33,588 nt of DNA. Source: Mycobacterium sp. Lineage in GTDB: Bacteria > Actinomycetota > Actinomycetes > RYN-182. The stretch is taken from the NCBI GenBank assembly GCA_025965515.1, contig JAOPWU010000029.1, positions 1-33,588 on the forward strand, written 5' to 3'. The position numbers and the translations under genes were made by a program. Positions 10,562-25,079 of this stretch are shown here, one piece after another (position 1 is the stretch's first letter; each line of letters opens with the position of its first letter). The notes below the pieces were generated by a model. The model did no database searches and was not told the origin of the DNA. It was given only the letters and a program-made list of their open reading frames with translations.

Positions 10562-13500
10562 ATGAAGACCGTCGGTGGCCTGCGCCCGGCCGGCGAGTGG
10601 CCCGCGAGGCCGCACGTGGAACAGAAGCTCGACAGCGCCGGAAGCCGCGTCTGCGTCGTCCTCGGCGTGGCGGGGTCCGGAAAGACGGCTGCGGTCGCCG
10701 CCTGGGCGCGCCGCCATCGCACGGTGTGGCTGGCGTACGAGCGGCGGCACGACGCCGCCTGGATCCTGCGGGTGATCGAGCGGGCGGTGGGGCAACGGGT
10801 GCCCCACGCCGTCCGCGAGGCCGCGGGGGAGACGGACGATGTCGACCGGCTGGGTGCGGCGGCGGCCGGGTTGTGCTCCTGGCTCCGGGAGGCCGTCGGG
10901 CCGGAACTCGTCGTCGTCCTCGACGATCTCCAGCGGTTCCCCCCGGGTGCTGAGGCCGTACGGCTCGTGGAGGGGATGTGCTGGTATGCCCCGCCGGGCC
11001 TGCGGATCGTCCTGGTATCCCGACGGGAGCCCCCGTTCTCGACCGCCCGGTTGCGGGGCCAGGGCCTGCTGACCGAGATCGACGCGGTGGACCTGGCTCT
11101 CGACGCGTCGGAGATCGCCGGCCTCGTGCCGGCGGTCAACGGGCCGGCCGAGGAGGGGACGGCCGGGCTCGCCCAGCGCATCCGGGAGCACACCGGGGGG
11201 TGGCCGGCCGCCGTCCACGCAGCGGTGACGGCGCTGGCGCGGGAGGACGGCGCCGGAGGGTCTTCGGCGCTGGAGCGCCTCGTGGCCCCCGGGGAGCGGT
11301 TCCACGCCTACCTGGCGGAGGAGGTGATCGGCCGGGAGCCCGACTGGGTGCAGGAGCTGTTGGTCCGGACCGCGGTGTTCGGCGGGATCACCAGCCCCGT
11401 GACGCTCGGCTCGGGGGACGGCGACCCCGGGGTCGTGCTGGCGGACCTGACCCGCCGCGGCCTCCTGCGGGAGACGTCCGGGGACGACCCGCGCTGGACC
11501 CTCGTGCCGCCGCTCGCCCGCTTCTTCGAGCACGACGGCGTGGTGGCCGGCCCGTCCCGGGCGGAGCTGCACGCTGCCGCGGCCGGTGAGTGCATGACGC
11601 GCGGGGCCTACGGCGACGCGCTGCGGCACCTGGTCGCCGCGGGGGACCGCGAGAGGACGGCGATCGTGCTCCGGCACCACGGCTCCAGCCTGGTGAGCGG
11701 GGGTCACGCCGACGCCGTGCTGCGGGCGGCGGAGCTGGTCCCCGGTCACCCCGACGACGCCCGGTTCCAGCAGGTCGTCGGCGAGGCGCGGCAGCTGCGC
11801 GGCCACTGGGCGGCCGCCTTCACCTCCTACCAGCGCGCGGCCGGCGAGGGAGACCGGATCCTCCCGGACCTGGCGTGGCGGATCATGGCCATGCTGCAGA
11901 TGCAGGGGGAGTTCGGCCAGGTGCCCCGCCTGTTCGACAGGGTGGCCCTGCGCCGCGAGGACACCCCCGACGAGTCCTGGGTGCTGGCGCACGCGGCCAG
12001 CGCCTACCGCCTGCTGGGGGACCACGCCAACGCCCGCCGTCTCGCCGACCGGTCCGTAGCCGCTGCTCAGCGCTCCGGCCGGCCGGGGGCGCACGGGCCG
12101 GCCCAGAACGTGCTGGCCATGCTCGCCGCCGCCGAGGGTGACCGCCGCGGGCTGGAGGCGCACTACACGAGCGCGCTCGAGGCGGCGGCCGCGGAGAACG
12201 ACCGCGTCCGGGTGGGGTGGATCCGCATCTCCCGGGCCATCCACCTCTTCGAGCTGGGATCCACGGGGGAGGCGGCGGCGGAGGCCGAGGCGCTGCGGAC
12301 GCTCGGTGACCAGTACGGGATCCCGTTCCTGCAGGCGCACGCCCTGACGGTGTCCGGACGCGCGGCCTTGCGGCTCGGCGACCCGGAAGCGGCCGCGGCG
12401 GACCTGTCCGCCGCGCTCGAGCTGTTCCAGCAGATCGGTTCCGGCTTCCTGGCCTGGCCCCTGGCGGCCCTCGGGGACCTGTACCGCCTCCGCGGCCAGC
12501 TCGCCCGGGCCCGGGCGGCCTACGAGGAGGCCCTGCGCACGGCTGAGGCGGGCCCCGACGCCATCGGGACGTCGCACGCGCTCCTCGGTCTGGCGCGCGT
12601 GCGGGCCGCCGACGACCTCACCGTCGCCCGCCCGCTGGCCCAGCGGGCGATGGCGCTCGACGAACCGCTCCACCGCGTCGAGGCCCTCCTCACCCGCGGG
12701 TGGGTGACCCTGCTCGCGGGCGACCGGCGCTCCGCCGCCACGGACGCGGCGCGGGCGGGTGCCGAAGCGCGGCGCCGCAGGGACGACCTCGGCCTCGCCG
12801 AGGCCGTCCTGCTGAGCGTCCAGTCCTCGAAGACCCCGGGGAAGGACGCCCAGCTGCTCGACGAGGCGATCGCGATCTGGCAGGAGGCCGGCTGCTTCCT
12901 CGAGGAGGAGGCAGCGCGGCTCGTGGCGGCGACGCTCGGCGGGGCGCCCTCCCGGCTGGAGGCGGACCGGGCGGCGCAGGCGCTGCGCGCCCGCGGCGTC
13001 GAGGTCGAGTCCCGCCAGGCGGCCGGCCCGGTGGCGGTCCTGCTGCGCTCGGCCCCGACGGTGTCCGTCCGCGCCCTGGGCGTCTTCCAGGTGGTACGCG
13101 ACGGGGAACCCGTGCCCAAGGCGGCCTGGCAGTCGAAGAAGGCCCGGGACCTGCTGAAGATCCTGGTCGCCCATCGCCGGCCGGTGCCGCGGGACCGGCT
13201 CGCGGAGCTGCTCTGGCCGGGCAGCGACCCGGCGCGCTCGGCCAACCGCCTGTCCGTGTTGCTCTCGACGCTCCGGGATGTCCTGCAGCCCGGGCGGGAC
13301 GGGGTGGGTCCGCTCCGGTCGGACGGCGCGGCGGTCTGGCTGGATCCGGCGCGGGTGCGGGTGGACGTCGAGGACTTCCTCGAGCGTGTCGACGCCGCCC
13401 TGGACGCCTTCCGCGGCGGCCGGCCCGAAGCTGCCGACCAGCTCGAACAGGCGGTCGCCGCCTACGGTGGCGACCTGCTGGAGGACGACCCCTACGAGGA

Positions 13501-13816
13501 CTGGGCCGCGCCGCTCGCCGAGGAGGTGCGCGCGCGCCACATCGCCCTGCTCCGGGCCCTCATCGCGTGCTTCCGCGCGTCCGGCGACCTCGACCAGGTC
13601 ATCCGCTACGGCTTACGGCTCCTGCAGCAGGACCCGTACGACGAGGAAGTGCGGCTCGACCTGGTGGCCGCGCTGCTCGACGCCGGGCGGCTGGGTGAGG
13701 CGCGTCGGCACTACGACGTCTACGCGCGCCGGATGCGGGAGATCGACGTCGAGCCCCGGCCGATGCCGCGCCCGCCGCGGACGATGCAGCCGGGGTGGCA
13801 GGGGCGGCTGGCGTAG
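10562..13816 (+). CDS. MalT-like ATPase/TPR regulator with C-terminal OmpR-type winged helix and BTAD domain
   Basis: 1084 residues, with ATG 10562 preceded by AGTAGGGGGA. The N-terminal STAND/AAA-like ATPase has Walker A GVAGSGKTA (K41) and Walker B LVVVLDDLQ (116-124). A winged-helix-like segment and a long helical TPR-like array follow (about 330-800), with repeated units such as AAFTSYQRAAGEGD and RARAAYEEALRTAE. A DNA-binding wHTH starts near residue 834 (VSVRALGVFQVVRDG ... SKKARDLLKILV, RDRLAELLWPGSDPARSANRLSVLLSTLR). A bacterial transcriptional activation domain then ends the protein. SARPs carry this wHTH-BTAD pair at the N-terminus; here it is at the C-terminus. The gene lies 181 bases upstream of the lanthionine synthetase and is probably the pathway-specific activator. 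The signal it senses is unknown. Confidence 0.9.
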   Translation: MKTVGGLRPAGEWPARPHVEQKLDSAGSRVCVVLGVAGSGKTAAVAAWARRHRTVWLAYERRHDAAWILRVIERAVGQRVPHAVREAAGETDDVDRLGAAAAGLCSWLREAVGPELVVVLDDLQRFPPGAEAVRLVEGMCWYAPPGLRIVLVSRREPPFSTARLRGQGLLTEIDAVDLALDASEIAGLVPAVNGPAEEGTAGLAQRIREHTGGWPAAVHAAVTALAREDGAGGSSALERLVAPGERFHAYLAEEVIGREPDWVQELLVRTAVFGGITSPVTLGSGDGDPGVVLADLTRRGLLRETSGDDPRWTLVPPLARFFEHDGVVAGPSRAELHAAAAGECMTRGAYGDALRHLVAAGDRERTAIVLRHHGSSLVSGGHADAVLRAAELVPGHPDDARFQQVVGEARQLRGHWAAAFTSYQRAAGEGDRILPDLAWRIMAMLQMQGEFGQVPRLFDRVALRREDTPDESWVLAHAASAYRLLGDHANARRLADRSVAAAQRSGRPGAHGPAQNVLAMLAAAEGDRRGLEAHYTSALEAAAAENDRVRVGWIRISRAIHLFELGSTGEAAAEAEALRTLGDQYGIPFLQAHALTVSGRAALRLGDPEAAAADLSAALELFQQIGSGFLAWPLAALGDLYRLRGQLARARAAYEEALRTAEAGPDAIGTSHALLGLARVRAADDLTVARPLAQRAMALDEPLHRVEALLTRGWVTLLAGDRRSAATDAARAGAEARRRRDDLGLAEAVLLSVQSSKTPGKDAQLLDEAIAIWQEAGCFLEEEAARLVAATLGGAPSRLEADRAAQALRARGVEVESRQAAGPVAVLLRSAPTVSVRALGVFQVVRDGEPVPKAAWQSKKARDLLKILVAHRRPVPRDRLAELLWPGSDPARSANRLSVLLSTLRDVLQPGRDGVGPLRSDGAAVWLDPARVRVDVEDFLERVDAALDAFRGGRPEAADQLEQAVAAYGGDLLEDDPYEDWAAPLAEEVRARHIALLRALIACFRASGDLDQVIRYGLRLLQQDPYDEEVRLDLVAALLDAGRLGEARRHYDVYARRMREIDVEPRPMPRPPRTMQPGWQGRLA

Positions 13817-13997: not shown

Positions 13998-16718
13998 ATG
14001 GTGGACCGTGGAGCGGCTCTCACCGGGGGCCCCCGCCCGTCCGTCACCAGCGACCGCCCCGCGTTCGAGCAGCTGCTCCGGGACGCGCTGCGGCAGGCGG
14101 GCCGGGCCGGCTCCTGGCAGGTCGTGGACGGGCCCCTCTGGTGCTCCGCGTCCCCGCTCGGCGCCACCGCCGCCCCGTCGCAGGGCTGGAAGTTGCATGT
14201 CTCGGCGACGCCCGCCTCCGCTGCGGCCGTCCTCGCCCGGGCGCTCCCCGTCCTGGTCGCGGGTGACTCGGCGTTCAAGTTCGCCCGCACGCCGCAGACG
14301 GTGGCGGAGCTGAACGGACGCCACACCCCGCGCGGCCAGTCGGGCAAGGTCCTCACCGTCTACCCCAGCAGCGACGCGGAGGCCGTCCGGCTCGCGGCGC
14401 TGCTGGACGCCGCCACCCGCGGCCTGCCGGGGCCGCGCGTGCTGTCCGACCGCCCGTACGCGCCCGGCAGCCTCGTCCACTACCGCTACGGCGCGTTCGC
14501 GGAGCAGCGCCGGATCTCCTCCGACGGCCAGTACTCCTGGGTGATCCTCGACCCCGACGGCAACCCGGTCGAGGACCTGCGCCTCGGCCAGTACCTGCCG
14601 CCGTCCTGGGCGCGGTGTCCCTTCCCCGATGCGGCCCCGAGGCGTCCCGCCGCGACGCCCGGAGACCGCGGGGTGCTGATCGGCGGCCGCTTCCTCGTCC
14701 GTGAGGCGATCCGTCACGCCAACAAGGGTGGCGTCTACCGGGCGGTGGACACCCGAACCGGGGACGAGGCGATCCTGAAGGAGGCCCGCCCCCACGTGGC
14801 CGCGGACGCGGCGGGCCGGGACGTCCGCGACCTGCTGCGTGCCGAGGCACGGGTGCTCGAGGTGCTCGGCCGCCGCGGCGTCGCGCCGCGGCTGCTCGCC
14901 ACCTTCGAGCAGGGCGGTCACCTGTTCCTGGCGGAGGAGCACGTGCCGGGGGAGCCGCTCCGCGTGTGGGTGCTGGACCGGATCCGCGAGGCGGGCTGGC
15001 GGCGGAACACCCCGGAGGCCCTGCGCCTCGCCGACCGGCTGATCGCGTTGCTGGAGACCTCGCACCGGGCGGGGTTCGTGCTCCGCGACTTCACGCCCAA
15101 CAACGTCATGGTCCGCCCGGACGGACGGCTGCAGCTGATCGACCTCGAGCTCGCGGTGCGCACCGCCGAGGCGGCCGACGCGCCGGGGGGCACCGGCACG
15201 CCCGGCTTCGCCGCCCCCGAGCAGATGCGCGGGGCGCCGGCCGCCCTGGAGGCGGACTCCTACAGCCTCGGCGCCAACCTGTGCTTCCTCCTGCTGGGCA
15301 GCACGCCGGAGCTGCTCGACGAGGGCGCGGAGGGCCGTCCCCTGAGCACCCGGCTCGCCGAGTGGCTGCGGGTCCGCCGGACGCCCGAGGCGCTCGTCCC
15401 GCCGATCCTGGGGCTGATGGACCCGGAGCCGGCCCGCCGCTGGACCCCCGCCGAGGCCGCCCGGGCCCTGGCACCCGCGCTCCGCCGGCCCCCGCCGGCG
15501 GCCGGCGGCTCCCGCGACCTTCCCCACCCCGACCCGCTCGACAGCGGCCTGTGGCGCGAGGTGGTGGACGGCCTCGTCAGCCACCTGCTCGGCGCGATGG
15601 ACCCGGCCGACCCGGAGCGGCTGTGGCCCGTGTCCCCGGCCCACGGAGACCCCGACCCGTGCATCGTGCAGCTCGGCACGGCGGGGATCCTCGGCGTCCT
15701 CACGCGCTGCCTCGAACTCACGGGGGACCCACGGCTCCCGGCGGCGGTGGCCACCGCGGCCCGGTGGACAAGCCGGCACGCCGCCGGCGACTCCGAGCGC
15801 GCGCCAGGCCTGTACTTCGGCCGGGCCGGCATCGCGTGGGCGCTCTACGAGGCCGGCCGGGTGCTGGGCGACGGCGACCTCGCGGCCCAGGGCCTCGCGC
15901 TCGCCGCCGGGCTGCCGGTCGACCCGGGGTCGTACGACGTCACGCACGGGACCGCCGGCATCGGTATGGCCCTGCTCCACCTGGGGCGCAGCGCCGGCCG
16001 GGAGGACCTGGTCCGGCGTGCGGGCGAGGCCGCCGCCGTCCTGGTCGCGGCGGAACGGGATGCGGACACGGCCGACGGCCTCCTGTGGCCCACGCCCGCG
16101 GCGGCAGCGTCCCCGACGGCGGGTGGCCTGTACTACGGCTTCGCACACGGCACGGCGGGCGTCGCTGCGTTCCTCCTCGCCACCGGCCGCCCCGACGGCC
16201 GCAGGACCGCGGTCCGTGCCGGCGAGACGCTGCTCGCCGCGGCCACCGTCGCCGACGGCGTGGCGCTGTGGGGCGCCGGGCCGGGAGACCCCACGACGGC
16301 GCCCTACTGGTGCCACGGCTCGGCCGGCATCGGGAGCTTCCTGACCCGCCTGTACCGGGTCACCGGCGACGACCGCTACCAGGAGGCCGCGCGCGGGGCC
16401 GCGACCGCGGTGCTGGAGAACGCCTCCCGGGGCGTCCTGGGCCAGTGCCACGGCCTGGCCGGTAACGGGGAATTCCTGCTCGACCTGGCGGACACCGGGG
16501 ACCGGGCGCACCACGAGGAGCAGGCCACCGAGGTGGCGCGCATCCTCCTGGCCAGCCGCGCGCACCGGTCCGGCGCCGTGGTGTTCCCCGACGAGACCGG
16601 GACGGTGTCGCCGACCTGGGCCGACGGCACCAGCGGCATCCTGGCGTTCCTGCTCCGGCTGCGGTACCGCTCGCCGCGGCTGTGGCTGGTCGAGCCCACC
16701 GGGGATGGGCGCCCATGA
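13998..16718 (+). CDS. lanKC: Three-domain lanthionine synthetase (LanKC/LanL type)
   Basis: 906 residues. The N-terminal lyase-like region (about 1-215) has the family segment SLVHYRYGAF and DPDGNPVEDLRLGQYLPPSW. The kinase domain (about 225-500) has the loop NKGGVYRA, Lys261 in ILKEARP, catalytic LRDFTPNN (D364, N369) and DLE (382-384) in place of DFG. The C-terminal LanC-like cyclase (about 520-895) shows YFGRAGIAWAL, THGTAGIGMALLHLG and FAHGTAGVAAF. Notably it keeps WCHG (C772) and CHG (C817, H818), the three LanC zinc ligands. Class III LanKC enzymes usually lack these and class IV LanL enzymes keep them. The enzyme phosphorylates and eliminates Ser/Thr in the precursor and forms thioether rings. 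Its stop overlaps the next start (ATGA), so it is coupled to the peptidase. Confidence 0.94.
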   Translation: MVDRGAALTGGPRPSVTSDRPAFEQLLRDALRQAGRAGSWQVVDGPLWCSASPLGATAAPSQGWKLHVSATPASAAAVLARALPVLVAGDSAFKFARTPQTVAELNGRHTPRGQSGKVLTVYPSSDAEAVRLAALLDAATRGLPGPRVLSDRPYAPGSLVHYRYGAFAEQRRISSDGQYSWVILDPDGNPVEDLRLGQYLPPSWARCPFPDAAPRRPAATPGDRGVLIGGRFLVREAIRHANKGGVYRAVDTRTGDEAILKEARPHVAADAAGRDVRDLLRAEARVLEVLGRRGVAPRLLATFEQGGHLFLAEEHVPGEPLRVWVLDRIREAGWRRNTPEALRLADRLIALLETSHRAGFVLRDFTPNNVMVRPDGRLQLIDLELAVRTAEAADAPGGTGTPGFAAPEQMRGAPAALEADSYSLGANLCFLLLGSTPELLDEGAEGRPLSTRLAEWLRVRRTPEALVPPILGLMDPEPARRWTPAEAARALAPALRRPPPAAGGSRDLPHPDPLDSGLWREVVDGLVSHLLGAMDPADPERLWPVSPAHGDPDPCIVQLGTAGILGVLTRCLELTGDPRLPAAVATAARWTSRHAAGDSERAPGLYFGRAGIAWALYEAGRVLGDGDLAAQGLALAAGLPVDPGSYDVTHGTAGIGMALLHLGRSAGREDLVRRAGEAAAVLVAAERDADTADGLLWPTPAAAASPTAGGLYYGFAHGTAGVAAFLLATGRPDGRRTAVRAGETLLAAATVADGVALWGAGPGDPTTAPYWCHGSAGIGSFLTRLYRVTGDDRYQEAARGAATAVLENASRGVLGQCHGLAGNGEFLLDLADTGDRAHHEEQATEVARILLASRAHRSGAVVFPDETGTVSPTWADGTSGILAFLLRLRYRSPRLWLVEPTGDGRP

Positions 16719-18556
16719 CCGCGACCTACCTGCGTGACCGCTTCGCGTTCGCCTTCTCGCCCCGGGGGCGCTGGGCGGCCTGCCTGCGGCTGGCCGGTGA
16801 CCGGCGCACGCTGGAGCACTGGGCCCTGGGGACCGAGCCGCCCGTGCCCCGCACGGTCCACGTGGTCGACGCCACGGTCGACACCTCCGCGGCGCCCCTC
16901 GACGACGGCCGGATCGTCGTGGTGCAGCGGGAGCAGGCGGTCCCGCCGCGCTACCGGGTCCACCTGGTCTCCCCGACGGGGGACGGGCACGCCCGGCAGG
17001 AGATCGGCATGGTCCCGTCCTCCCTGGCGTGCCACGTGCTGGCTGCTCCGGGGGCGTCCCGGCTTGCCGTCGTGGTGGGCGTCGATGCGGAGCGTTCGAC
17101 GGTGTGGGAGGTGGCGGGCGAGCCGCCGCGGCTCACCGCGGTCGCGGAGCTGCCGGGCGCGGTGGACGGCGGCGCCTGGGCTGCCGCGGACGTGCTGGCG
17201 CTCAACCGGACCGACGACGCCGTGGGGACCCACGGGGTCGTCGTGGAGCTCCGGGACGGATCGTGGCGGCAGGTCTGGAACGTCTCCGAGGGCAGCGCCG
17301 ACGAGATCCTGCTCGCCAGCCCCGCGTCCGGGCTGCTCGTCGTGAGCACCGACGCCGGGGGCGTGCAGCGCCTGGGCTGGGGCCGGCTCGGTGAGCGCTC
17401 GGTCCGGTTCCCCGAGGCCCTCCGGCCCGCGGCGACGCCCTGTCGGGTCCTGGCCCTCGACGACCGGGGGGAGCGGTTGCTGGTCGATGCGCCCGCCGGT
17501 GCCTCGTCCCGGCTGTGCGTCGTCGACCTGGCCCGGGACGTGGCGGAACCGGTCCCCGGCCCGCCGTGCACGGTGTCGCCCCCGGCGTCGTGGGTCGGCG
17601 ACACCGTCCGCTTCGGGTACTCCGCGCCGGACTGCCCGCCGGCGCTCGGGACGGTGCGGCTCGGCCCCGACCCGCGGTGGTCGTCCGCCGGGGAGGGGGA
17701 CCGCCGGTGGGCCGGCGCCGGGCTCGTGGAGCTGGCCGGGGCGGCCGGCCCCGTCGAGGCGATCGTCTACGGGGGACCCGACTGGCGGCTCCGCGAGCAT
17801 CTGGTCCTGGCCTTGCACGGCGGTCCGCTGGCGGCCTGGCAGTGCGCGTACGACCCCCTGTTCGCGGAGCTGGTCGACGCCGGTGCCGCCGTCGTCGCCC
17901 CGAACTACCGGGGCAGCACCGGCTACGGCGAGGACCACCTGCGGGCGGTGCTCGGCCACTGGGGCGGCCCGGACCTCGCCGACGTGCTGCGCATCGGCCG
18001 GGATCTCCTCGCGGCGCGGGGCCCCGGTCGCCCCCGGCCCGTGCTGGTGGCCGCCAGCTACGGCGCGTACCTGGGACTGCTCGCGGCCTGCGAGGAGCCC
18101 GGCCTCTGGTCCGGCTGCGCGGCGCTGGCGCCGTTCCTGTCACCGGCCGCCCTGCACGCGAGCGGCTCTGCCGCCGTCCGCGACCGGGTCGAACGGCTCG
18201 GCGGGCTCGAGGGCCCGGCCCCGGACGTGCTGCGTGCCTGCGACGCCCTGACCGTTCCCCTGCTGCTCGTCCACGGCGCCGACGACACGACGATTCCCGC
18301 CGACGGGTCGCGGGCGCTGCACCAGCGGCTGCTCGCCCTGGGACGGCGTGACGGCGTCGACGTCGACTTTCTGCAGCCCGCGGCCGACCACACGGCGGTC
18401 GGCCTCTGGCAGGAGGAGGGGCTGCGGCGGCGGCTGCGCGACTTCTGCCTGCAGCCCCGACCCGCGCCACCGACCGCGGTGGCCGCCACGGCGGGCCGTC
18501 CCCCCAGACCACCTGCGCACCCGCTGCCCGCTGTAGAGGGCGGTGCCCGCAGGTAG
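16715..18556 (+). CDS. S9 prolyl-oligopeptidase-like peptidase, candidate leader peptidase
   Basis: 613 residues from ATG 16715, inside the synthetase stop (ATGA); the track start at 16682 is upstream of this. Residues 1 to about 370 form a divergent beta-propeller-like region. The alpha/beta-hydrolase domain follows, with the oxyanion strand LHGGPLAAWQ, PNYRGSTGYGEDH, nucleophile S448 in ASYGAY, Asp524 in HGADDTTIP and His559 in ADHTAV, a complete catalytic triad. The nucleophile elbow is AASYGAY rather than the usual GGSYGG. No signal peptide is seen, so it is cytoplasmic. S9-family proteases such as FlaP and AplP are known to remove class III lanthipeptide leaders, and FlaP cleaves after Pro. 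The precursor 54 bases downstream contains PETDP and PPPGGGG, which would suit such cleavage; the actual site is inference. Confidence 0.9.
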   Translation: MTATYLRDRFAFAFSPRGRWAACLRLAGDRRTLEHWALGTEPPVPRTVHVVDATVDTSAAPLDDGRIVVVQREQAVPPRYRVHLVSPTGDGHARQEIGMVPSSLACHVLAAPGASRLAVVVGVDAERSTVWEVAGEPPRLTAVAELPGAVDGGAWAAADVLALNRTDDAVGTHGVVVELRDGSWRQVWNVSEGSADEILLASPASGLLVVSTDAGGVQRLGWGRLGERSVRFPEALRPAATPCRVLALDDRGERLLVDAPAGASSRLCVVDLARDVAEPVPGPPCTVSPPASWVGDTVRFGYSAPDCPPALGTVRLGPDPRWSSAGEGDRRWAGAGLVELAGAAGPVEAIVYGGPDWRLREHLVLALHGGPLAAWQCAYDPLFAELVDAGAAVVAPNYRGSTGYGEDHLRAVLGHWGGPDLADVLRIGRDLLAARGPGRPRPVLVAASYGAYLGLLAACEEPGLWSGCAALAPFLSPAALHASGSAAVRDRVERLGGLEGPAPDVLRACDALTVPLLLVHGADDTTIPADGSRALHQRLLALGRRDGVDVDFLQPAADHTAVGLWQEEGLRRRLRDFCLQPRPAPPTAVAATAGRPPRPPAHPLPAVEGGARR

Positions 18557-18557
18557 G

Positions 18558-18576
18558 CCCGGCCACCCCGGCCGGG
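18558..18576 (+). promoter_or_regulatory. GC hairpin just upstream of the precursor gene
   Basis: CCCGGCC (18558-18564), loop ACCCC, GGCCGGG (18570-18576) gives a perfect seven-pair stem one base after the peptidase stop. With the hairpin after the precursor gene it brackets the lanA message. It could terminate or process the upstream transcript, or protect the 5' end of the precursor mRNA. Confidence 0.5.
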
Positions 18577-18610
18577 TGCACCCAAAGGAAGCACGACGAG
18601 AGGAGACACG

Positions 18611-18817
18611 ATGGAGCTCGAGAGCATGGACCTGGTGGCCTCGCTGCAGGCGCTGCCCGAGACGGACCCGATCGAGGGCATCCAGTTCTGGAGCGGCGGC
18701 GGCAACAAGAAGCCCCCTCCGGGTGGCGGCGGCAACCGCACCTGTCAGTCCGCCTGCGTGGCGGCGCTGACGATCCAGGTGAACACCGTCTGCGTGCTCG
18801 TGGCCACCTGCGTCTGA
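18611..18817 (+). CDS. lanA: Lanthipeptide precursor peptide
   Basis: 68 residues, with GAGAGGAGA before the ATG. The acidic leader MELESMDLVASLQALPETDP carries an LxxLQ-like helix resembling the DLQ leader motif of SapB/AmfS precursors. A linker (IEGIQFWSGGGNKKPPPGGGGNR) separates it from a hydrophobic C-terminal core of about 25 residues starting TCQSACVAALT. The core has Ser/Thr at 44, 47, 54, 59 and 66 and Cys at 45, 49, 61 and 67. That allows up to four thioether or labionin crosslinks, although the SxxSxxxC pattern of standard class III cores is not exact. It lies between the peptidase and exporter genes, as expected for the substrate of the synthetase. The call rests on context and composition. 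Confidence 0.88.
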   Translation: MELESMDLVASLQALPETDPIEGIQFWSGGGNKKPPPGGGGNRTCQSACVAALTIQVNTVCVLVATCV

Positions 18818-18828
18818 GGCCCGCACGG

Positions 18829-18867
18829 CTCGCGACGCCGGCCGCTGGTACCGGCCGGCGTCGCGAG
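18829..18867 (+). terminator. 16-bp perfect stem-loop after the precursor gene (attenuator)
   Basis: CTCGCGACGCCGGCCG (18829-18844), loop CTGGTAC, then its exact complement (18852-18867). It starts 12 bases after the precursor stop and has no U tract. This position, between a precursor and its transporters, is typical of a partial terminator or RNA-stabilising hairpin that keeps precursor mRNA in excess. Confidence 0.8.
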
Positions 18868-18945
18868 GCCTCTCGGCGGGGGCGGCCTGCGGGCCGCCTC
18901 CGCCGTCGGGATGTGGTTCGGAGTCTAGGGGGAGGGAGCCGCCCC

Positions 18946-20796
18946 GTGAGAGGTGCGGAGGGCCGCGGCCCGGCGCGGCCCCGCCCCGCGCGGCGTCGGC
19001 TGCTGTCGGGGTTCGCGGGTCCCGGGGGCGGCGAGCACCAGATCCGTGCGGTCGGCACGCGGCTCCTCCTGCGCAGCCTGGTCCAGGTGCGCCTGCCGGT
19101 CGCCGTCCTGGTGGTCGCAGCACTGCTGGGCACCGTCACGACCGTGCTGTTCCCCGCCGCGCTGGGCAGGGCGATCGACGCCGTCGTCACGGGACACGGC
19201 CTGCCGGGCGCGCTCGTGTCGGTGGGGGCGCTGCTCCTGACGGGCGTCGTTCTCGAGGCGGTCGACGATCTGGTCGGCACGTCGGTCGGCGCGTCGCTCA
19301 CGGCGTACCTGCGGCACCGGCTGCTTCGCCGGGCGCTCGGATGGGGCGGCGCGGAGCGGTTCCCGCCCGGTGACGTGCTGTCGCGGCTGGCCGTCAACGC
19401 CGACAGCGCGGCGGTGTTCCTGCCGGCCGTCATCGGTGGCGTCACGACGGTCCTCGTCGCGCTGGGGGGCGTGGCCGGCCTCGCCCTGATCGACTGGCGG
19501 CTCGCCGTGGCGTTCCTGCTCGGGACGCCCGTGGCCGTCGTCGTCGTCCGGGTTTTCCTCGTCCAGGCGGCCGGGCCATCGGTGCGGTACCAGGAGCTGC
19601 AGGCCACGCTGGTCGGCCGCCTGCTCGGGGCGTTCGAGGGTGTCCGCACGATCCGGGCGAGCGGCACGGCGGAGCGCGAGATCGAGCGCATCCTGCAGCC
19701 GCTGCCCGAGCTCCACCGCCTCGGGCGCCGGGTCTGGACGCTGCAGGGCCGGGCGAGCTGGCGGCTGACGCTGCTCACCCCCGCGGTGGAGGTGCTGGTG
19801 CTCGCGGTCGCGGGGTTCTCGCTGGTCCGCGGCCGCATCACGCCCGGGGAGCTGGTGGCCGCCGGGGAGTACGTCGGGATGGCCCTGGGGGCGATCGGGT
19901 TGGCGGACCAGCTGGTGTCGCTGCTCGGCTGCCAGGTCGGGGCCGGCCGGGTGGGTGAGGTCCTGGCGACGGAGGACTCGATCGCCCAGCCACCCGCGCC
20001 GCGGCCGCTGCCGGACGGCCCGGGCTGCGTCGAGCTGCGCGGCGTCACCGTCCGGGCGGGCGGCAAGGTCGTTCTCGACGCCCTGGACCTGACCGTCCCG
20101 GCCGGGGCGCAGGTGGCCCTGGTCGGTCGGTCGGGCGCGGGCAGGAGCACGCTCGTCTCCCTGGTGGGCCGGTTGCGGGATCCGGACGCGGGCGAGGTCC
20201 TGCTCGACGGGGTGCCCGTGCGGGAGGTGGCGCTGCCGGAGCTGCGGCGTGCCGTGAGCTACGCCTTCGAGCGGCCGGCCCTGCTCGGCGCCACGGTCCA
20301 CGACACCATCGCCTACGCGCGCCCGGCCGCCTCGCGCCGCGACGTCGTCCGAGCAGCCGTGGCGGCCCGGGCCGACAGCTTCGTGCGCAAGCTGCCCGAC
20401 GGCTACGACACCCCCCTGGCGCGGGCCCCGATGTCCGGGGGGGAGTTGCAGCGGCTGGGGCTGGCGAGGGCGGTCCTCGTGGCCGCCCGGGTGATGGTCC
20501 TGGACGACGCGACCAGCAGTCTCGACACGGCGACCGAGGCGCAGGTGACCCGGGCGCTCGCCACCGTCCTCGCCGACCGCACCTGTCTGGTGGTCGCCCA
20601 CCGGGCCGCGACGGCGGCGCGCGCGGACCTCGTCGCCTGGCTGGACGGCGGCCGCATCCGCGCGCTCGCCCCGCACCGCGCCCTGTGGGCCGACCCCGCG
20701 TACCGGGCGCTGTTCGCCGCCGGAGGCGACGGGTTCGCCGACCCGGACGCGACGGACGGCCGCCGGCCGCCCGTGGGCGCGGGGGCCGGGCCGTGA
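18946..20796 (+). CDS. ABC transporter half-protein 1 (membrane domain + NBD with degenerate ATP site)
   Basis: 616 residues from GTG 18946, chosen because GGGGGAGGGAG precedes it. The track GTG at 18913 would place that site inside the gene. Membrane segments span roughly residues 45-320, including LPVAVLVVAALLGTVTTVLF. The nucleotide-binding domain has Walker A GRSGAGRST with Arg400 in place of the Lys, signature MSGGE (496-500), Walker B VMVLDDATSSLD with Asp521 where the catalytic Glu should be, and H-loop VVAHR. Both substitutions weaken its own ATP site while its signature motif is intact. It should pair with the next gene product as a heterodimeric exporter, analogous to RamA/RamB, moving the modified peptide across the membrane. 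The stop overlaps a GTG in the next gene. Confidence 0.92.
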   Translation: MRGAEGRGPARPRPARRRLLSGFAGPGGGEHQIRAVGTRLLLRSLVQVRLPVAVLVVAALLGTVTTVLFPAALGRAIDAVVTGHGLPGALVSVGALLLTGVVLEAVDDLVGTSVGASLTAYLRHRLLRRALGWGGAERFPPGDVLSRLAVNADSAAVFLPAVIGGVTTVLVALGGVAGLALIDWRLAVAFLLGTPVAVVVVRVFLVQAAGPSVRYQELQATLVGRLLGAFEGVRTIRASGTAEREIERILQPLPELHRLGRRVWTLQGRASWRLTLLTPAVEVLVLAVAGFSLVRGRITPGELVAAGEYVGMALGAIGLADQLVSLLGCQVGAGRVGEVLATEDSIAQPPAPRPLPDGPGCVELRGVTVRAGGKVVLDALDLTVPAGAQVALVGRSGAGRSTLVSLVGRLRDPDAGEVLLDGVPVREVALPELRRAVSYAFERPALLGATVHDTIAYARPAASRRDVVRAAVAARADSFVRKLPDGYDTPLARAPMSGGELQRLGLARAVLVAARVMVLDDATSSLDTATEAQVTRALATVLADRTCLVVAHRAATAARADLVAWLDGGRIRALAPHRALWADPAYRALFAAGGDGFADPDATDGRRPPVGAGAGP

Positions 20797-20813
20797 CCCA
20801 GGAAAGGGCGACC

Positions 20814-22598
20814 ATGGCGGAGGGAGCCCGGTTCCTGCGGGGCGCCCTCGGGAGCCGCCGCCGGGCCCTGGCCCGGCTCGCCGGCTACTCCCTGCTGGAG
20901 GGCCTGCCCTCCTTCGTCTCCGGCCTGTTCATCGCCACCGCGATCGATCGCGGTTTCCTCGCCGGCCGGTTCTGGGTCGGTGCCGCCTGGCTCGCGGCGC
21001 TGGCGGCGGCCTGGGTGGTCGGCGCGTTCGGGACTCGGCAGGCGTACCCGTGGCTGGCGGAGATCGTCGAGCCGCTGCGGGACACGCTCCTGTCCCGCCT
21101 GGTGGCCGCCTCGCTCGGGTCGGCGCTGCGGGACGAGGACGCCGCGCGCGGAGCGACCGTCGCCCGCGCGACCGTCCAGGTGGAGACCGTGCGGGCGCTG
21201 TTCTCCAGCCTGCTGCGCATCCTGCGCCAGCTGCTCACCTCCTGCATCGCCGCGGTCGGCGGCCTGGCGACCCTGTCGCCGCTCCTGGCGCTGTGCGCCT
21301 TGCTGTTCCTCGGCGTCGCAGTGCTGCTCTTCGTCGCGCTCCTGCCCGTGCTCGTCGCCCGGTACCGGGCGGTGGTGCTGGCCGAGGAGCAGGTCGGGGA
21401 GCGCGCGGCGCCGGTGGTGACGGGCGTCCGGGACGTGGTCGCGGCCGGTGCGCAGGAGCACGCCGCCCGGGACGTGGGGGAGGCGATCGACGCCGCGGCC
21501 CGGGCCACCCGGGCCTTCGCCCGGGCCCGGGCGTGGCGCCTGCCGGTCGTCGCGCTCGGCGCGGACTTCCCGCTGCTCGCGCTGCTGGCGGCGGCGCCGT
21601 GGCTGCGGACGCACGACCGGCTGACGGTGGGGGACATCGCCGGCGGGGTCGTCTACCTGTCGGCGGGGCTCGAGCCGGCCGTCCGGTTGCTGGTGAACGC
21701 GGCCGGCACCGTCCTCGTGACGCTGGGGGTCGTCCTGGGCAGGCTGGCGGAGGCGTGCCGGGAGCCCGACGCGCCGCCGGGGGCCGTCGGCGCCCTGCGG
21801 CCGTGCGGGTACGCCGTCCGCCTCGACGGCGTGACCTTCCGCTACGCCGAGCACGCCGCGCCGGTGCTCCGGGAGCTGGAGCTCGAGATCCCGGCGGGCG
21901 AGCACCTGGCCGTCGTCGGGCCGAGCGGCGCCGGCAAGTCCACGCTGGCGGACCTGCTGGCCGGCCTCCTCCGGCCGCAGGAGGGGTCGGTCCTGCTCGG
22001 CGGCGTGCCGCTCGAGGACCTCGACGAGCGCGAGCTGCGGCGCACCGTCGCGCTCCTGCCGCAGGAGGGCTACATCTTCGCCGGGTCGGTGCGGGAGAAC
22101 CTCGCCTACCTGCGTCCGGACGCGGACGACGAAGCCGTCACCCGGGCGGCCGCCGCCGTCGGACTGGACGCGACCGTCGCGGTGCTGGGGGGACTCGGCG
22201 CGGAGCTCGACCCGCGCAGCCCCATCCTCACGCCCGGCACCCGCCAGCGGATCGCACTGGCCCGCGCGCAGCTGTCGCCCGCCGCCGTCGTGGTCCTCGA
22301 CGAGGCGACGTCCCACCTCGATCCCGCGGCGGAGGCCGCCGCGGAGCGGCTCCTCGCCGACCGGCCGGGCACGCTCGTGGTCATCGCCCACCGGATCAGC
22401 TCCGCGCTGCGTGCGGACCGCATCCTGGTGCTGGACGGCGCTGCGGCGGTCGTCGGCCGCCACGAGGAGCTGCTCCGGACCAGCCCGCTCTACGCCGAGC
22501 TCGTCGGCTACTGGACCGATGCGCCGGACGCACCGGGCGTTGCCGGCCCGACCGCCCCCTGTCCCGTGGGCGCCCCGGACGGGCTCTTTCGCCTGTAG
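20814..22598 (+). CDS. ABC transporter half-protein 2 (membrane domain + catalytic NBD)
   Basis: 594 residues from ATG 20814, which has AGGAAAGGG upstream. A GTG at 20793 overlapping the previous stop is an alternative. Membrane segments occupy about residues 25-300 (LLALCALLFLGVAVLLFVALLPVLV among them). The NBD has intact Walker A GPSGAGKST (K375), Q-loop LLPQEG, Walker B VVVLDEATSHLD (E497) and H-loop VIAHR. Its signature is LTPGTRQ (472-478) instead of LSGGQ. This is the mirror image of the first half-transporter. A heterodimer would then have one consensus ATP site (this Walker A/B with the partner's SGGE) and one degenerate site. It probably exports the lanthipeptide. Confidence 0.93.
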   Translation: MAEGARFLRGALGSRRRALARLAGYSLLEGLPSFVSGLFIATAIDRGFLAGRFWVGAAWLAALAAAWVVGAFGTRQAYPWLAEIVEPLRDTLLSRLVAASLGSALRDEDAARGATVARATVQVETVRALFSSLLRILRQLLTSCIAAVGGLATLSPLLALCALLFLGVAVLLFVALLPVLVARYRAVVLAEEQVGERAAPVVTGVRDVVAAGAQEHAARDVGEAIDAAARATRAFARARAWRLPVVALGADFPLLALLAAAPWLRTHDRLTVGDIAGGVVYLSAGLEPAVRLLVNAAGTVLVTLGVVLGRLAEACREPDAPPGAVGALRPCGYAVRLDGVTFRYAEHAAPVLRELELEIPAGEHLAVVGPSGAGKSTLADLLAGLLRPQEGSVLLGGVPLEDLDERELRRTVALLPQEGYIFAGSVRENLAYLRPDADDEAVTRAAAAVGLDATVAVLGGLGAELDPRSPILTPGTRQRIALARAQLSPAAVVVLDEATSHLDPAAEAAAERLLADRPGTLVVIAHRISSALRADRILVLDGAAAVVGRHEELLRTSPLYAELVGYWTDAPDAPGVAGPTAPCPVGAPDGLFRL

Positions 22599-22699: not shown

Positions 22700-23125
22700 A
22701 TGACCGCCGGACCCGGCTCCGCCGCAGACCGGAGCGCCCGGTGGGACGAAGCCGCGCCGCACGTCGTGGCGTTCGGCGCCGACGGCCTGCCGGCCGTGCG
22801 GGGGACCTGCGCAGCGCTCGCGCTGGCGGCCGGGTTGTCCCGCCAGCGGGCGGACGAGCTGACGCTGGCCGTGCACGAGGTCGCCGCGAACAGCATCCGG
22901 CACGGCGGCGGCAGGGGAACCTTTTCGCTGTGGACCGAGGCGGACCGCGTCGTCTCCCAGGTGCAGGACGCCGGGCACTTCCGCGACCTCCGCGCCGGGG
23001 AGACGGAGCCGGACCTCGACCGCGAGGACGGCCGTGGCCTCTGGCTGGCCCGGCAGCTCTGCGACCTCGTGCAGATCCGGTCCAACGCCGGCGGTACCAC
23101 GATCCGGCTGCACGTCTACCGCTGA
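22700..23125 (+). CDS. RsbW/anti-sigma-type HATPase
   Basis: 141 residues from ATG 22700, preceded by GGGCCGGGG. The HATPase_c_2 motifs are present: N-box HEVAANSIRHGG near 57-68, D-x-G in DAGHF, and the Gly-rich lid EDGRGLWLARQL, with GGTTIRLHVYR at the end. Members bind anti-sigma-factor antagonists or sigma factors and phosphorylate the former on Ser/Thr. No partner (SpoIIE phosphatase, STAS antagonist or sigma factor) lies nearby, so the target is probably encoded elsewhere. It follows the exporter by 101 bases, with no clear terminator between, so it may be co-transcribed with the lanthipeptide genes or belong to the c-di-GMP locus downstream. Confidence 0.88.
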   Translation: MTAGPGSAADRSARWDEAAPHVVAFGADGLPAVRGTCAALALAAGLSRQRADELTLAVHEVAANSIRHGGGRGTFSLWTEADRVVSQVQDAGHFRDLRAGETEPDLDREDGRGLWLARQLCDLVQIRSNAGGTTIRLHVYR

Positions 23126-23204: not shown

Positions 23205-25079
23205 ATGGCGGACCGCGGACGACGAGGGGGTCCGGGGGCCGCGGGACGCGACGCGGTCGTGGCCCGCGTACGTCGTCGCCGGGGGATCGCCCGTCCGGTC
23301 GTGGCCCGGCCCCGGGTCGTGGCCGTGACGACGGCGGTGCTCTTCACCGTCGCGGGCCTCCTCGCGCTCGCCGCGACGCTCCTGTCACCCGGCGACTTCG
23401 CCAACCTGCCCGCGGTCCGCGCGCTGGCCGTGACCGCGGTGGCCACGGGCGTCGTCACGGCCTGTTTCCGCAACCGGTTCCCCGTCCGAGCGGCCCATGG
23501 CCTGGTGACTGCCGGCACGGCGCTGATCACCGTGGCGGTGCACATGACCGCCCACTCGCCCACGTCGGTCGCCCTCGCGTCCCTGTACGTCCTCATCGCG
23601 GTCGACAGCGCCTTCTTCTTCTCGTGGCCTGCCGCGGTGGGGCACCTGACCGTCGCGACGGTCGGCGGCGGGGTGGTGCTGTGGTCGGACCACGACGTCG
23701 GCGCCGGGCCCAGCCTCGTGGTGGCCGGCACCGCGGTGCTCGTGGCGGGCGTGGTGGCCTGGTTGGTCCGGGCCGCTGGGGCCGCCGATACGGACGCCCT
23801 CACCGGGCTGCCGAACCGCCGGGGACTCGACCGGCTGCTCGACGACGCCATCACGGTGGCCGAGCGCTCCGGGGCCCCCCTGACCCTGGCGGTCATCGAC
23901 CTCGACCACTTCAAGGCGGTCAACGACAGCGCCGGTCACCAGGGCGGCGACCTGCTGCTCATCCGCACCGCGCACGCGTGGGCCGCGCTGCTCGGACCGG
24001 GCCAGTCACTGGCCCGGCTCGGCGGCGACGAGTTCGTCGTGCTGCTTCCCGGCACCGGCCTCGAGACCGCGCTCGGGGTGGTGCAGCGCCTGCGCGGCGT
24101 GGTGCCGGACGGGCGCACCTGCTCGGTCGGCGTCGCCGAGCGGCACCCCGACGACGCGTCCTCCCTGCTGTCCAGCGCGGACGCGGCGCTGTACGAGGCC
24201 AAGCGGGCTGGCCGCGACTGCGTCCGGCACCACGGGCACACGGCCGCGGTCCGGACCGAGGTCCGCGGTGCGCTGGCACGGGGCGAGATCGTCGTGCACT
24301 ACCAGCGGGTGGTCGACCTGGCCACGGGCCGCACGGCCGGGACGGAGGCCCTCGTCCGTTGGCAGCACCCGGAACGCGGGCTCGTTCCGCCCGGTGACTT
24401 CCTGCCGCTGCTCGAGGGCTCGACCCTGCTGGCCGACGTCGGCCGGTTCGTACTGACCGAGGCCTGCGCGCAGACCGCGGCCTGGCGGCGCGACGGCAGC
24501 GAGGTGACGGTGGCCGTGAACGTGGCAGGGGAGCAGCTGCTCGACCCGGGCTACGCCGAGCAGCTCGCCGAGATCCTCGCCGCGACGGGGCTGCCGGCGG
24601 CCGCGCTGGTGCTGGAGGTGACCGAGTCGTCCCTCGACGCGGACACCGCTCTGGCGCAGCGGACCCTCGAGGCCGTGCGGGCGCTCGGGGTGGGCATCGC
24701 CGTGGACGACTTCGGCACCGGGTACTCGAGTCTGGCCCGGCTGGGGCGGCTCCCCGTGGACCTCCTGAAGATCGACCGCTCCTTCGTCGTGGCCGTCCCG
24801 GAGGGGGCCACCGAGGCGCCCATGATCCAGGCGATCACCGCGATGGCGGCCGCGCTGGGGCTCGAGGTGGTCGCCGAGGGCGTGGAGGACGAGGGCCGTG
24901 CCCGCCTGCTCCGGAGGCTGGGGTGCGGCTACGCCCAGGGGTACCTCTTCGGCCGGGCCGTCCCGTCGGCGGAGCTCGACCTGCTGGGGGTCGCGGCGGT
25001 CGAGGACCACGGCGGCGCTCCGCGGCTGCCGGCGCAGCGCCGGCTGGCGGTCGGACCGGACCTGCGCCTGCCCCGCTGA
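23205..25079 (+). CDS. Membrane-bound GGDEF-EAL protein (c-di-GMP synthesis/hydrolysis)
   Basis: 624 residues. The ATG at 23205 has no strong ribosome-binding site, so the start is uncertain. An Arg-rich N-terminus is followed by about five or six membrane segments (residues 40-195). The GGDEF domain has DALTGLPNRRG, DLDHFKAVND and an intact GGDEF (273-277). The inhibitory RxxD site five residues before it is absent. The EAL domain has EALVRW (381-386), NVAGEQL, DDFGTGYSS, KIDRSF, VAEGVED and GYLFG, all key metal and catalytic residues. Both activities are therefore plausible, and the net direction cannot be predicted. The stop codon touches the left end of the inverted-repeat element. Confidence 0.93.
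   Translation: MADRGRRGGPGAAGRDAVVARVRRRRGIARPVVARPRVVAVTTAVLFTVAGLLALAATLLSPGDFANLPAVRALAVTAVATGVVTACFRNRFPVRAAHGLVTAGTALITVAVHMTAHSPTSVALASLYVLIAVDSAFFFSWPAAVGHLTVATVGGGVVLWSDHDVGAGPSLVVAGTAVLVAGVVAWLVRAAGAADTDALTGLPNRRGLDRLLDDAITVAERSGAPLTLAVIDLDHFKAVNDSAGHQGGDLLLIRTAHAWAALLGPGQSLARLGGDEFVVLLPGTGLETALGVVQRLRGVVPDGRTCSVGVAERHPDDASSLLSSADAALYEAKRAGRDCVRHHGHTAAVRTEVRGALARGEIVVHYQRVVDLATGRTAGTEALVRWQHPERGLVPPGDFLPLLEGSTLLADVGRFVLTEACAQTAAWRRDGSEVTVAVNVAGEQLLDPGYAEQLAEILAATGLPAAALVLEVTESSLDADTALAQRTLEAVRALGVGIAVDDFGTGYSSLARLGRLPVDLLKIDRSFVVAVPEGATEAPMIQAITAMAAALGLEVVAEGVEDEGRARLLRRLGCGYAQGYLFGRAVPSAELDLLGVAAVEDHGGAPRLPAQRRLAVGPDLRLPR

Follow-up and report, generated by a model that had tools for sequence, protein, structure and literature searches.

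The window, the whole 33,588-nucleotide stretch of actinomycete DNA that was analyzed, carries a class IV lanthipeptide gene cluster of the venezuelin (VenL/VenA) type, a reading to which we give a probability of about 95%. It follows from the family membership of the synthetase and its precursor peptide, the alignment columns of the zinc ligands, the gene order, and the phylogenetic placement of the enzyme. The operon is composed of lanL, an S9 peptidase gene, lanA, a 16-bp hairpin, and two complete ABC transporter halves, in that order (Table 1). The cluster is of the ordinary class IV kind, neither a hybrid nor an evolutionary intermediate, and is new only as a member.

Table 1. Features of the lanthipeptide cluster, with positions in the window
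Feature	Position	Strand	Basis
LanL class IV lanthionine synthetase, 906 aa	13998..16718	+	NF038150 1054 bits; PF25816, PF00069, PF05147
LanL domains: lyase (RamC_N, residues 35-214), Ser/Thr kinase (about 226-490), LanC-like cyclase (557-896)			
Zinc ligand C772 (WCHG), codon TGC	16311..16313	+	Alignment column and codon
Zinc ligands C817 (TGC, 16446-16448) and H818 (CAC, 16449-16451), QCHG	16446..16451	+	Alignment columns and codons
S9 (prolyl oligopeptidase family) peptidase	16715..18556	+	PF00326 54.4 bits; catalytic Ser, Asp, His present
LanA precursor, 68 aa, VenA family, LPETDP leader, core TCQSACVAALTIQVNTVCVLVATCV	18611..18817	+	NF038147; resembles clade precursors
Perfect 16-bp hairpin, 7-nt loop, just 3' of the precursor gene	18829..18867	+	Inverted repeat
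ABC exporter half 1 (TMD and NBD), probable GTG start 18946	18946..20796	+	PF00664, PF00005
ABC exporter half 2 (TMD and NBD), probable GTG start	20793..22598	+	PF00664, PF00005

The synthetase and its zinc ligands

The synthetase holds Pfam lyase (PF25816), kinase (PF00069), and LanC-like cyclase (PF05147, 121 bits) domains in a single chain, and it is the only LanC-like match across the whole genome. The NCBIfam class IV LanL model (NF038150) scored 1054.2 bits, above its cut-off of 650, while the class III LanKC model (NF038151) scored 495.9 bits, below its cut-off of 575. Class III enzymes lack zinc ligands and class IV enzymes retain them (PMC7268733, PMC10604976), and the first-pass annotation had stated this rule correctly. 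The ligands whose absence marks class III LanKC enzymes are present in the aligned synthetase.

The same annotation had named C772, C817, and H818 as LanC zinc ligands with a spacing of 45 residues from C772 to C817, which was confirmed by the codons and by the alignments. A total of 93 LanL/LanKC-type enzymes was aligned, comprising 52 with C/C/H ligands, 14 with C/C/C, 26 without the triad, and one that is truncated. The three residues, found in the local sequences PYWCHGS and LGQCHGLA, fall in the columns that hold C/C/H or C/C/C in the zinc-bearing enzymes. In the alignment with 3t33, a solved LanC-like protein, WCHG lies over WCHG and CHG over CHG, and in that with 8car the triad stands opposite C and CC. 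Judged from these sequences, the match of the triad is one of homology in the right columns, not of chance.

The ligands vary elsewhere in the sample. A separate LanL-type clade (L089-L093, L097-L099, and L102-L105) carries C/C/C ligands (CQG or CRG ... CCG). L055 and L058 have CCG within the C/C/H group, apparently through a separate change, and both have an S9 peptidase. L101 and L126 lack the zinc triad, yet they group among zinc-bearing enzymes on long branches in both domain trees, and a divergent S9-like gene adjoins each of them on the opposite strand.

Precursor peptide and predicted rings

The precursor matches the VenA model NF038147 with 47.3 bits, above the cut-off of 35. LPETDP occupies residues 15-20, and the leader contains SLQALPETDPIE. 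The SapB/AmfS precursor model NF033212 gave no match to this peptide; it does match the SapB-type precursor of locus L119, which lies beside a zinc-less enzyme. The window precursor is a VenA-family class IV lanthipeptide and not a SapB-like one.

Precursors were compared across the six-member clade to which the synthetase belongs, regular-expression searches having missed them at most other loci. VenA-like precursors occur in all the other five members (L002, L049, L050, L068, and L069). Four of these were run against NF038147 and scored 84-96 bits, about twice the 47 bits of the window precursor, whose lower score is attributed to its spacer and core changes. The L069 precursor has T18, A29, T31, C32, C34, T39, T43, C45, S49, C50, and A51 at the positions that these residues occupy in VenA (PMC2843593), which identifies the six-member clade as venezuelin-type.

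The order of Thr and Cys in the core TCQSACVAALTIQVNTVCVLVATCV is that of venezuelin; the first two cysteines are separated by two more residues, one serine is additional, and the last small ring is larger by one residue. Alignment with venezuelin predicts the rings C49-T54, C61-T66, C45-T59, and C67-T44, of which the last two are less sure because the work on VenA allowed another pairing as well. What is mildly unusual about the cluster is its precursor, which has a Pro/Gly-rich spacer and a predicted ring pattern that is slightly enlarged. It is tentatively proposed that the product could be a tetracyclic peptide like venezuelin but with larger rings (more residues between Cys1 and Cys2, an additional Ser, and a last ring of greater width) and that the spacer NKKPPPGGGGNR could at the same time be a site dedicated to cleavage by the neighboring S9 peptidase; this combination is somewhat doubtful.

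S9 peptidase and its probable role in leader removal

The probable ATG start of the S9 gene at 16715 forms an ATGA overlap with the lanL stop, and the Ser-Asp-His triad is intact in columns aligned with 26 relatives. A gene for an S9 peptidase of the same family lies directly downstream of 28 of the 66 zinc-bearing enzymes sampled and of none of the 26 zinc-less ones. By ligand type, the counts are 26/52 for C/C/H, 2/14 for C/C/C, and 0/26 for enzymes with no triad. The Fisher p value for C/C/H against none is 1.7e-6, a figure that is descriptive and not calibrated, as it ignores relatedness and the loci were hand-picked from search hits. According to a review, S9 peptidases are implicated in both class III and class IV. 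Since the gene adjoins zinc-bearing and not zinc-less enzymes in this sample, and both classes are implicated, the S9 peptidase is no class III marker.

Trimming of a class IV leader by an M1 peptidase has been reported (PMC10885120), and the genome studied here encodes two M1 peptidases. In the ven cluster there is no gene for a protease (PMC2843593), and the role of the S9 enzyme as leader protease is therefore based on analogy. By this analogy, it is the foremost candidate for making the first cut in the leader, and the candidate bonds are those after P20 of LPETDP and after P37 of KKPPP.

The cluster might instead be class IV with an S9 peptidase that is a mere neighbor serving another role. 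The lack of a protease gene in ven would fit this explanation, as would the absence of an S9 gene beside LanL in L068 and L069 (2/6 clade members). However, the overlap with lanL, the adjacency conserved across 28 zinc-bearing clusters, and the intact catalytic triad argue against it, and it is considered unlikely.

Phylogenetic placement and gene context

Three quick trees with SH-aLRT support were built, namely a lyase-kinase tree, a cyclase tree with the ligand columns removed, and a combined tree of 34 rows chosen by the author, in which VenL and RamC do not appear under their own names. The window enzyme forms a six-row clade with L002 (Saccharopolyspora endophytica), L049, L050, L068, and L069, with support of 100% in the lyase-kinase tree, 99% in the cyclase tree, and 100% in the combined tree. 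In the combined tree, the zinc-less, C/C/H, and C/C/C enzymes are each set apart from all others by a single branch, and in none of the trees does a zinc-less enzyme lie close to the window enzyme. In these trees, the window enzyme groups with LanL and not with LanKC.

The S9 gene adjoins LanL in four of the six clade members (the window, L002, L049, and L050), with ABC genes following about 2 kb on, and the two-ABC layout recurs within this class IV clade. The first-pass annotation had proposed a phylogeny of the kinase and cyclase domains and would have taken its idea as refuted if the enzyme fell deep inside a known LanL or LanKC clade with this context in every member. The placement in a class IV clade was obtained, and the shared context extends to four of the six members, most though not all of them, so that the outcome is essentially the refuting one.

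The annotation had further seen class III traits in a SapB-like layout, the leader, and the S9 peptidase. This did not hold, as shown by the VenA-family precursor (NF038147), the S9 counts (none beside zinc-less enzymes), and the recurrence of the two-ABC layout in the class IV clade. Of its proposal of a class IV enzyme with class III accessories, the first half stands on the triad, NF038150, and the trees, while the accessories are not specific to class III. Because this context is not that of class III, the interpretation fails on its premise; the observation of the ligands itself was correct.

Its other proposal was a lineage intermediate between LanKC and LanL that kept its zinc and acquired class III accessories. 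The 496 bits given by the class III model, as expected of a homologue, count in its favor, and so does the cyclase-only AU test (p = 0.129), which does not reject placement with class III, even though the cyclase tree itself favors the class IV clade (99%). Grouping with the zinc-less class III clade is rejected on the combined tree (AU p = 0.00014), the enzyme lies within the six-member class IV clade in all trees (99-100%), and the supposed class III accessories lose their specificity through the S9 counts, the precursor models, and PMC10885120. An intermediate lineage is accordingly very improbable. A class III LanKC that regained its zinc ligands is the least credible explanation, as nothing speaks for it beyond the shared three-domain architecture, while the score falls below the class III cut-off, zinc-less enzymes are never near neighbors in the trees, and the precursor belongs to the VenA family.

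Comparison with known systems

Two ABC halves belong to the SapB layout. The class III SapB/RamC system resembles the window in these halves and in its lyase-kinase-cyclase enzyme, and differs in its absence of zinc ligands, its SapB/AmfS precursor family, and its clade. The class IV venezuelin cluster (venL, venA, venT, and venH; PMC2843593) shares the three-domain LanL, the VenA-family precursor with its LPETDP leader, the Thr/Cys order of the core, and an adjoining ABC transporter. What sets the window apart from venezuelin is the gene for an S9 peptidase and the pair of complete ABC halves, together with a precursor that contains a Pro/Gly-rich spacer, an additional Ser, and predicted rings of slightly larger size.

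The LanL of L002 is 55% identical to that of the window, and the gene order is the same (LanL, S9 peptidase, VenA-type precursor, and two ABC genes), whereas its 56-aa precursor lacks the KKPPPGGGGN spacer. The solved 8car/8cav synthetase, deposited as 'Serine/threonine protein kinase', is a homologue over residues 40-905 (304 bits). Its ligands are C/C/C as against C/C/H in the window, and in its motifs it is similar to the separate C/C/C clade described above, with which 8car shares the C/C/C motif.

Neighboring genes and sequence features

The probable reading frames of the two ABC halves share a GTGA overlap, with the start of half 2 lying over the stop of half 1. The fold z-score over 18815-18912 is -5, and a second strong stem lies behind the 16-bp hairpin, which is possibly an attenuator ahead of the transporter genes.

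A large AAA/TPR/BTAD regulator gene (SARP- and MalT-like; 10562-13816, +) lies directly upstream of lanL; the only homologue detected among related loci (667 bits) lies close to the LanL cluster of L085. The exporter is followed by an anti-sigma-like HATPase_c_2 gene (22700-23125, +) and then by a GGDEF-EAL gene (23205-25079, +), the latter with no counterpart among related loci. The GC content of 13998-22598 is 77.4%, compared with 74.1% for the remaining window. Acquisition of the cluster by transfer is possible. The genome set compared contained no other genome from the family of the source actinomycete.

Proposed biosynthetic route and significance

For this cluster, we infer zinc occupancy, catalysis, the ring pattern, the cleavage site, and export. 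By homology to VenL (PMC2843593), the LanL kinase would phosphorylate Ser and Thr of the core, and the lyase would then eliminate the phosphate to give Dha and Dhb. In zinc cyclases, the metal activates Cys thiols, in contrast to the zinc-less ThurKC (PMC10604976), and the zinc-bearing LanL cyclase would add the four Cys thiols to form the (Me)Lan rings. Leader removal probably begins with a cut after Pro by the S9 peptidase, an M1 aminopeptidase encoded elsewhere in the genome may trim the remainder of the leader, and the two-part ABC exporter would secrete the product.

These findings remove a false puzzle, as it is normal in class IV for zinc ligands to occur together with an S9 peptidase within one cluster. 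That S9 peptidases accompany zinc-bearing LanL-type enzymes in this sample can be used as a hint for annotation.
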